In this document: in pieces, positions 18,104 to 19,855 of the stretch | Layout of the letters: every line of letters begins with the position of its first letter | Numbering within the stretch: position 1 is the first letter of the stretch | NCBI GenBank assembly: GCA_021205245.1 | Contig: JAJPXZ010000183.1 | Location: forward strand, 1-39,527 | Source of the DNA: Planctomycetaceae bacterium | GTDB lineage: Bacteria; Planctomycetota; SZUA-567 | Direction: 5' to 3' | DNA length: 39,527 nucleotides | The notes under the pieces: model-generated | The model's input: the letters and a program-made list of their open reading frames with translations, nothing else | Told to the model about the DNA's origin: nothing | The model's database searches: none | Position numbers and translations under genes: made by a program

Positions 18104-19076
18104 TGCGTGTTCGGGAATCGACCCGTCAGGTGTAATCGCCCCCGCATGGGAGCGCCATAACAGAAAATCGGGTGGCCGGTTTCGGACCGCGAGGTCCCGT
18201 CTCGCCGTTGCCGCCCTCCTGCCCTTCGTCGGCGCGACCGCCATGGCGGGGATGGAAGATCCGCCGCCGCTGCAACTCCTCGGCCTATCCTTCAACCACG
18301 CGACCATCATCCACTGCGCCATCGCCGCCGTTGCCGTCTATCTGCTGGTGCGGCTCCTGACCATCAACCTGTCGCGCGAGCACCCCCGGCGCGGCCAGGT
18401 GCTTATCGAGATGATCGTCTCGACCTTCCTTGATTTGACCAAATCCACCATCGGTCCCAATCGCGGCCCCTGGTACCTCCCCTACATCGGCACGCTGTTT
18501 CTGTTCCTCTGGGCGTGCAACATGATGGCCCTGTTCCCAGTGGGGAACTCCCACTTCGGCGGCGAGACCTTTATCGACTACAACTCGAACGGATTGTACG
18601 ACCCGGGTGAACCGTTTATCGACATGAACGGCGACGGCATCCATAACCCGGGATTCCAGCTCCCGGCGTTTGAGGAACCGACCACCGACCTCACCCTGCC
18701 CGCCACCCTGGCCATCATCTTCGTGATTGTCCTCGGCCACGGCTCGGGGATACGCTACAACGGCATACGCGGCTACCTGAAGGAGTACTTCTCGCCCGGC
18801 GGGTTGATCGGCATCGGCATGTTTCCGTTGAATGTCGTCGGCAAGATTGCGGAACTCATCTCCATTTCGTTCCGTATCTTCGGGAATATTTTCGGCGGGG
18901 CGATCATCATGTCCGTCGTCTCCGGACTGCTCTATTACTTCATCGTGCCGATCGGTATGTACGGGTATTTCGCCGTTTTCTGCGGCACCATCCAGGCCTT
19001 CGTCTTCACCATGCTGGCCACCACTTATATTTCCATGGAAGCGGCTGAAGAAGTGGAAGAAGAGGAGACGACCTGA
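18096..19076 (+). CDS. atpB: F-type ATP synthase subunit a
   Basis: AELISISFRIFGNIFGGAII carries the conserved stator Arg. GTG start overlaps the atpI stop. Confidence 0.95.
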   Translation: MSSACSGIDPSGVIAPAWERHNRKSGGRFRTARSRLAVAALLPFVGATAMAGMEDPPPLQLLGLSFNHATIIHCAIAAVAVYLLVRLLTINLSREHPRRGQVLIEMIVSTFLDLTKSTIGPNRGPWYLPYIGTLFLFLWACNMMALFPVGNSHFGGETFIDYNSNGLYDPGEPFIDMNGDGIHNPGFQLPAFEEPTTDLTLPATLAIIFVIVLGHGSGIRYNGIRGYLKEYFSPGGLIGIGMFPLNVVGKIAELISISFRIFGNIFGGAIIMSVVSGLLYYFIVPIGMYGYFAVFCGTIQAFVFTMLATTYISMEAAEEVEEEETT

Positions 19077-19855
19077 TGGGCATTGCCAACCTCGCGGCAC
19101 TGCTGGCGTGCGGCCTCGCCATGGGGCTGGGCGCGCTCGGCTCCGGCTATGGCCTCGGCTATACCGCGCAAGGGGCGCTCCGCGCCCTCGCCCGCCAACC
19201 AGCCAAACAGGCGGACATTTTCCGCACCATGCTGGTGGGACAGGCAATCACCGAGACGCCGGCGATTTTCTCGCTCGTCGTTTCGTTCCTCCTGTATTTT
19301 TCGGTCGGGAAGGCATTGGAAGCGCCCGACTCGCTCGCGCAGTGCGCCGTGTACCTGGCGGCGGGAATCTGCATCGGCGTCGGGGCCATCGGTTCAGGCA
19401 TCGGTTCCGGCCTGGTGGCGCACGAAGCCATCGACGGGATGTCCCGCAATCCCGCGACCCAGTCGCAGGTCGTGATGCTTATGCTTATCGGTCAGGCCTG
19501 GGCGCAGACGGGCGGCATTTTCGCGCTGGTGGTGTCGTTGTTCCTCCTGAATACCGGCGGCTTCGCCGGGCTGTCGGCCGCGACGGATCCGCACATCTTC
19601 GGCATGATAGCGTTGTCCGGGGGCGAGCTTATCGGTATGGCGCGCTATCTTGGCGCAGGCTTGGCCATGGGCTTTGGCGCAATCGGTTCCTCCATCGGCA
19701 TCGCCTATGTCGGCGCGATGGCCTGCCGGACGGTGGCGGATCGGCCTTCGGCGGCCAGCCGCGTCAAAACCGCTTATTTTATCGGCTCGGCGACGGCCCA
19801 GTCGCCCAGCGTGTTTTCATTGATCATCGCGCTTATCCTGCTGATACGCGGATAG
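19076..19855 (+). CDS. atpE: F-type ATP synthase subunit c, fused triple-hairpin form (about six TM)
   Basis: Three tandem c-like hairpins with GxGxxGSGxG TM1 motifs and [15 protein letters not shown] / [15 protein letters not shown] / [17 protein letters not shown]2 motifs. Start overlaps the atpB stop (TGATG). Confidence 0.93.

Follow-up and report, generated by a model that had tools for sequence, protein, structure and literature searches.

Fused multi-hairpin c subunits with missing coupling carboxylates in F1Fo ATPase operons of Planctomycetota and other bacteria

The ion/ATP ratio of a rotary ATPase is normally set by the size of its rotor ring. An F1Fo operon in a planctomycete genome raises the question of what becomes of this ratio when one rotor polypeptide carries three c-type hairpins and only one coupling carboxylate. 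The window (the whole stretch of DNA analysed, 39,527 nucleotides) is contig C199 of a 4.3-Mb Planctomycetota draft genome that is 85% complete and comprises 203 contigs. Its near relatives are planctomycete draft genomes, and isolate codes resembling gut samples suggest a gut origin for several of them. The operon has the order I-a-c-c-b-b'-delta-alpha-gamma-beta-epsilon, a complete F1Fo set, with the following features.

17672..18103 (+): small membrane protein, AtpI-like as judged from position and hydropathy
18096..19076 (+): atpB, encoding subunit a, with the stator Arg within SFRIFGN
19076..19855 (+): F-type c subunit of three fused hairpins with E, Q and Q at the coupling positions (translation, PF00137, AlphaFold2)
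19253..19255 (+): hairpin 1 coupling position, Glu, GAG codon
19505..19507 (+): hairpin 2 coupling position, Gln, CAG codon
19799..19801 (+): hairpin 3 coupling position, Gln, CAG codon
19884..20144 (+): companion single-hairpin c, two-carboxylate Na+ motif E32, E65, S66
20162..21118 (+): subunit b, with an extra N-terminal TM and a domain of about 150 aa between two TM segments
21130..22389 (+): second b-type subunit (b'), extended
22410..23021 (+): subunit delta
23065..24825 (+): subunit alpha
24828..25847 (+): subunit gamma
25892..27313 (+): subunit beta
27322..27786 (+): subunit epsilon

The fused c gene is a single unbroken ORF of 259 aa whose ATG shares one base with the TGA of atpB, and translation together with three PF00137 (ATP-synt_C) matches (E 9.6e-45) confirmed the three c-like hairpins that a preliminary description, made from the sequence alone, had placed at 19076-19855. 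The Glu and two Gln codons that it had read at 19253, 19505 and 19799 are likewise as described (GAG, CAG and CAG), and the three coupling residues are identical in 4/4 relatives with 74-94% protein identity. Compared with these relatives, pN was 0.03-0.18 and pS 0.34-0.71 (pN/pS about 0.1-0.25), and JC-corrected dN/dS was about 0.08-0.12, with synonymous sites near saturation for the farther relatives; by these sequence measures the gene is under purifying selection. Independent assemblies carry near-identical 259-aa proteins, and cultured strains have longer homologues, including one in the complete genome of Desulfosarcina widdelii. Sequencing error and decay are ruled out by the same residues in relatives and the low pN/pS, and the recurrence of the same gene and the same Gln residues across independent assemblies establishes a real gene rather than separate ORFs or misread Glu codons.

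An AlphaFold2 model of the fused c consists of three helical hairpins (pLDDT 92.7, pTM 0.87), its best solved fold matches being Acetobacterium woodii c1 (4bem_J) and Enterococcus hirae K (2bl2); A. woodii c1 is also the closest sequence in the PDB (2e-19). Hairpin fold and F1Fo operon setting are those of F-type subunit c (PF00137), and the protein departs from the rule of one hairpin and one carboxylate per polypeptide by its three hairpins with E/Q/Q. Two points were missing from the preliminary description. In hairpin 1 the Na+-ligand position of TM1 (Q/E32) is occupied by Leu, and therefore the Glu of this hairpin lacks a full Na+ site; across hairpins 1, 2 and 3, position 32 is L, S and I, and the Na+ ligand set of Q/E32, E65 and S/T66 is incomplete in all three. 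The next gene encodes a normal c with E32/E65/S66, which has this complete Na+ ring motif in the two-carboxylate form crystallised from Fusobacterium nucleatum (PMC3692424).

Two other assignments were considered for the operon. An N-ATPase, in which beta and epsilon come first and b is fused with delta, is ruled out by the gene order and by the separate delta. A V/A-type K subunit is also ruled out; the operon is F1Fo, the fused c sequence is nearer F-type c models than V/A-type K, and the genome has its own V/A-type ATPase with a two-hairpin K elsewhere (contig C1). The same genome encodes two Rnf clusters, with RnfC beside RnfD (contigs C146 and C147), and an OAD-beta-type (Na+-pump-type) decarboxylase beta subunit, a combination that suits a Na+ economy.

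Several neighbouring genes have features of their own. The AtpI-like protein (17672-18103) had no Pfam or NCBIfam match. Subunit a (18096-19076) has at about residues 165-190, between two TM segments, an insert of the form DYNxNGxYDPGEPFxDxNGxGxHxPGF, which resembles Asp/Asn-rich calcium-binding loops and is common to the fused-c family described below. Subunits b (20162-21118) and b' (21130-22389) are very long, each with an extra N-terminal part and an inter-TM domain (~150 aa in b, ~110 aa in b'); that of b is conserved within the family, and its predicted fold (pLDDT 80, pTM 0.45) had no convincing match when compared with the PDB. To the left of the operon (11143-17376) lie genes for an asparaginase (-), a CsoR-like metal repressor and a copper-type P-ATPase (+), a Ysc84-domain protein (+) and a LacI-type regulator (-).

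A search for other multi-hairpin F-type c subunits, proposed with the preliminary description, returned many, with two to six hairpins. The remark that no F-type operon with a six-TM, single-carboxylate c was known to be described stands in so far as no description was found, but the window protein is not isolated: it belongs to a multi-phylum family spanning Planctomycetota, sulfate-reducing and related deltaproteobacterial lineages, Cloacimonadota and Margulisbacteria. Long-form c subunits occur in about 25/399 sampled Planctomycetota genomes and in many members of Desulfosarcina's phylum; single draft genomes with a fused c are assigned to Myxococcota, Cloacimonadota, Margulisbacteria and Bacillota. 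Of about 100 loci from these different phyla, nearly all have a, fused c and single c in this order, including loci whose F1 genes lie elsewhere.

Residues were read at HMM-aligned positions in 165 fused proteins, representing the family at 90% identity. Three (69) and four (68) hairpins are most common, followed by five (19), two (6, some of them cut by contig ends) and six (3). At position 65 the patterns are EQQ (45), EQQE (40), EQQQ (21), EQQQQ (14), EQE (13), EQQQE (5), ETE (4), EQQQQQ (3) and others. Among cultured members, Desulfosarcina widdelii has EQQQ, Desulfatibacillum alkenivorans EQQE and Desulfatitalea alkaliphila EQQQQ, in genomes that also contain additional c genes. Middle hairpins have Gln at position 65 in 262/274 cases and E65 is present in hairpin 1 of 157/165 proteins, whereas non-redundant companion single-hairpin c subunits have E65 in 38/38 and E/Q32 in 37/38 cases. 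A six-hairpin query added 26 more EQQQQQ proteins and nothing longer among the matches listed; none of its best 120 matches exceeded 490 aa, although lengths up to 852 aa were allowed, and six hairpins are therefore the most seen. Examples from L118, L135, L137 and L155 are 12-TM proteins of about 487 aa with one carboxylate (EQQQQQ), each beside a normal c.

At the other end of the range, the window's own family includes fused c subunits with no coupling carboxylate at all, as SQQ in genome G096 and as four-hairpin SSQQ in genomes G033 and G158. These SSQQ or SQQ forms are located as follows.

L045:4642-5658: zero-carboxylate fused c, operon split
L046:6459-7475: zero-carboxylate fused c, operon split
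L043:5007-5756: zero-carboxylate fused c

No c or K gene besides the fused and single set was found in G033, G158 or G096 (92, 84 and 91% complete). In G033 and G158 the fused gene remains with atpI and a, and the single c of G033 is on a different contig together with b, b', delta and alpha. One metagenomic protein (P0111, on a 5-kb contig) is a single polypeptide that combines three hairpins with the single c (EQEE), for which a sequencing error is possible.

Conservation patterns in the family point to a place in the rotor ring. Among 604 hairpins of fused proteins, E/Q32 was present in 146/232 hairpins with E65 and in 0/372 without it, and reduction to 60% identity left this association intact (17/38 versus 0/54, p 2e-8). 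Position 66 in site-less hairpins, by contrast with the lost ligands, is Ser in 91/95 last hairpins and Thr in 257/269 middle hairpins, an argument partly confounded by ancestry since last hairpins are mutually related. In the E. hirae K rotor, the E139/Q110 site of hairpin 2 is completed by T64 of hairpin 1 (PMC2359735). By the same rule, the adjoining single c would have its site completed by Ser66 of the last hairpin, and the conservation of this Ser fits ring incorporation because it would serve that neighbouring site. A site-dead segment lodged in a ring should show this sequence pattern, with its own-site ligands lost and the neighbour-serving 66 hydroxyl kept. Ring-fold glycine motifs are also retained in the fused c. 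A point against a place in the ring is the weaker conservation of the R-x-P loop facing F1 in last hairpins, of which 88/165 have the P.

Common origin with A. woodii c1 (orthology) was considered and is not supported. A tree built from 124 hairpins over 75 columns, with many weak forks, groups them by position across phyla, first with first and middle with middle, and shuffled labels never scored as low. The two hairpins of A. woodii c1 branch with A. woodii c2 and the c subunits of Ilyobacter tartaricus and F. nucleatum, apart from the fused-c family (SH-aLRT 96, moderate at 75 columns). Subunit a of fused-c loci falls on one side of a branch (100) separating it from four ordinary planctomycete a subunits. 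These sequence relationships point to a single ancestral fusion with later duplication of middle hairpins, independent of A. woodii.

From the sequence, synteny, conservation and predicted fold shown above, we infer ring incorporation, copy number, ion and, tentatively, direction of the enzyme. The operon probably encodes an F1Fo ATPase of the Na+ type whose ring mixes fused and single c subunits, the fused part forming a site-free arc and lowering the ion/ATP ratio. The ring would contain one (or few) triple-hairpin subunits and several copies of the adjacent single-hairpin c, with the ring fold of the fused hairpins intact and their F1-facing loop largely preserved. Two of the three fused hairpins, having lost both own-site ligands (65 and TM1 32), would face subunit a with a Gln that never carries charge, and hairpin 1, with Glu and no TM1 ligand, would be at best a partial site; a site-free arc with fewer ions per turn would therefore result. 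For one EQQ copy in an assumed 11-hairpin ring, 9/11 carboxylates would give 3.0 ions/ATP, or 8/11 and 2.7 if hairpin 1 is silent; under the same assumption, one SSQQ copy would give 2.3 and one EQQQQQ copy 2.0. The lowest ratio reported among known F-type rings is 2.7 (c8; PMC8106487). A low ratio would favour an enzyme that pumps Na+ at the expense of ATP, or one that makes ATP only when the ion-motive force is high. We infer that a lowered ion/ATP ratio from mixing the fused c into the ring, as the preliminary description had proposed, is the best reading.

Crossing such an arc may not be simple. In the fused c10 ring of Bacillus PS3, a single E56Q was enough to abolish ATP synthesis, and the same work places two or three c subunits opposite subunit a at once (PMC8809890); an arc of two to five Gln hairpins therefore makes high demands on the mechanism. 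Two or more adjacent Gln hairpins may thus be incompatible with synthesis, which counts against the mixed ring with a site-free arc. Rotation across the arc would need F1 drive or stored elastic energy, and a pump mode is therefore somewhat favoured. In A. woodii, an enzyme whose ring has a missing site can act as a synthase (PMC7793690, PMC7911925).

The same observations could be read in other ways. The fused c might be chiefly a structural or assembly piece that sets ring size, nucleates the ring beside a and AtpI, or forms a seam, with site loss as tolerated drift and the altered ion/ATP ratio as a by-product. This is the more serious of the alternatives, albeit an unlikely one: hairpin number (2-6), carboxylate number (0, 1 or 2) and the place of the Glu (hairpin 1 or 3) all vary among relatives, carboxylate-free SQQ and SSQQ forms come from genomes in which no second c/K set was found, and in G033 and G158 the fused gene has stayed with atpI and a while the single c moved elsewhere. 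However, drift alone does not predict a uniform Gln in middle hairpins, nor the retention of E65 in hairpin 1 at the frequencies given above. If the fused c instead lay outside the working ring, as a regulatory, alternative or stored proteolipid or as part of another complex, the zero-carboxylate forms and the arrest of PS3 synthesis by one Gln (PMC8809890) would be readily accommodated. Such a role is improbable given the near-invariant synteny beside a and c, the retained glycine motifs and 66 hydroxyl, the natural fusion with a single c in P0111 and the presence of the nearest known analogue, A. woodii c1, in a crystallised ring (4bem). The fragmented state of the draft genome (203 contigs, 85% complete) could be held to favour an assembly artefact, gene decay or a chimera, but we regard this as scarcely credible, since the gene recurs in many independent assemblies, longer forms exist in cultured genomes, pN/pS is low and the Gln residues are unchanged in relatives.

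Beyond the window, the mixed ring with a site-free arc may extend, tentatively and with somewhat less than even confidence, to a widespread class of F1Fo motors in which a single fused subunit with three to six hairpins and up to five adjacent Gln, or a carboxylate-free one in organisms where no further rotary-ATPase rotor gene was found, makes a long site-free arc. If so, these rotors would turn, uncoupled from ions, through an arc larger than subunit a covers, and their ion/ATP ratios would be tuned by lineage and could drop below those of known F-type enzymes. The family challenges the idea of an ion at nearly every rotor position. Its members, in which two to five neighbouring sites are dead or the fused part has no working site, form a graded natural series in which one can ask how a rotor passes the stator with no ion bound, where the lower bound of ion/ATP lies and whether such enzymes act as pumps or as synthases; cultured sulfate reducers are among its members.

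No description of an F-type c with three or more hairpins was found in the literature covered, to which the 2015 hybrid-rotor survey of Brandt and Mueller did not belong. That survey reportedly lists twelve species with one F-type and one V-type c gene per operon. Searches for literature on Desulfosarcina c subunits and on multi-hairpin or fused F-type c returned nothing. In the part of its text available, ProAD mentions c/K variants of two or more hairpins in general terms and does not describe F-type ones (PMC11738941), and a 2026 paper that reports multiple atpE copies in Desulfatiglandales gives no detail on their hairpins (PMC13343851).

Among known systems, the F. nucleatum c ring (3ZK1) shares E32/E65/S66 with the window's companion c, but it is built of one c kind with 11 identical sites, whereas the window operon has two kinds. 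V/A-type K subunits (E. hirae NtpK and the triplicated K of methanogens) resemble the fused c in their fused hairpins and missing carboxylates, and adjacent hairpins fold similarly in 2bl2; in contrast, the other subunits in the window are all F-type and the operon also has a single-hairpin c. The closest counterpart is the F/V hybrid rotor of A. woodii and Clostridium aceticum (4BEM), in which c1 is combined with c2/c3; its F-type operon likewise encodes a normal c beside a multi-hairpin one. The window operon has the gene combination of this hybrid-rotor type, a multi-hairpin c with missing sites plus a normal c, which supports the analogy with A. woodii c1 drawn in the preliminary description for a three-hairpin, single-carboxylate c within an F-type operon. 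Like the fused c, A. woodii c1 has Glu in hairpin 1, Gln in hairpin 2 and a Na+-type single-hairpin partner, and it comes from an Rnf organism. It has two hairpins and one missing site, whereas the window protein has three hairpins, relatives have as many as six, and in the family two to five neighbouring sites are missing or no site is left; the partner c has E32 in the window operon and Q32 in A. woodii, and the TM1 ligand of hairpin 1 is lost in the window protein, unlike in A. woodii c1. The system would work as a hybrid rotor like that of A. woodii, and differs from it in hairpin number, adjacent dead sites, partner motif and origin.
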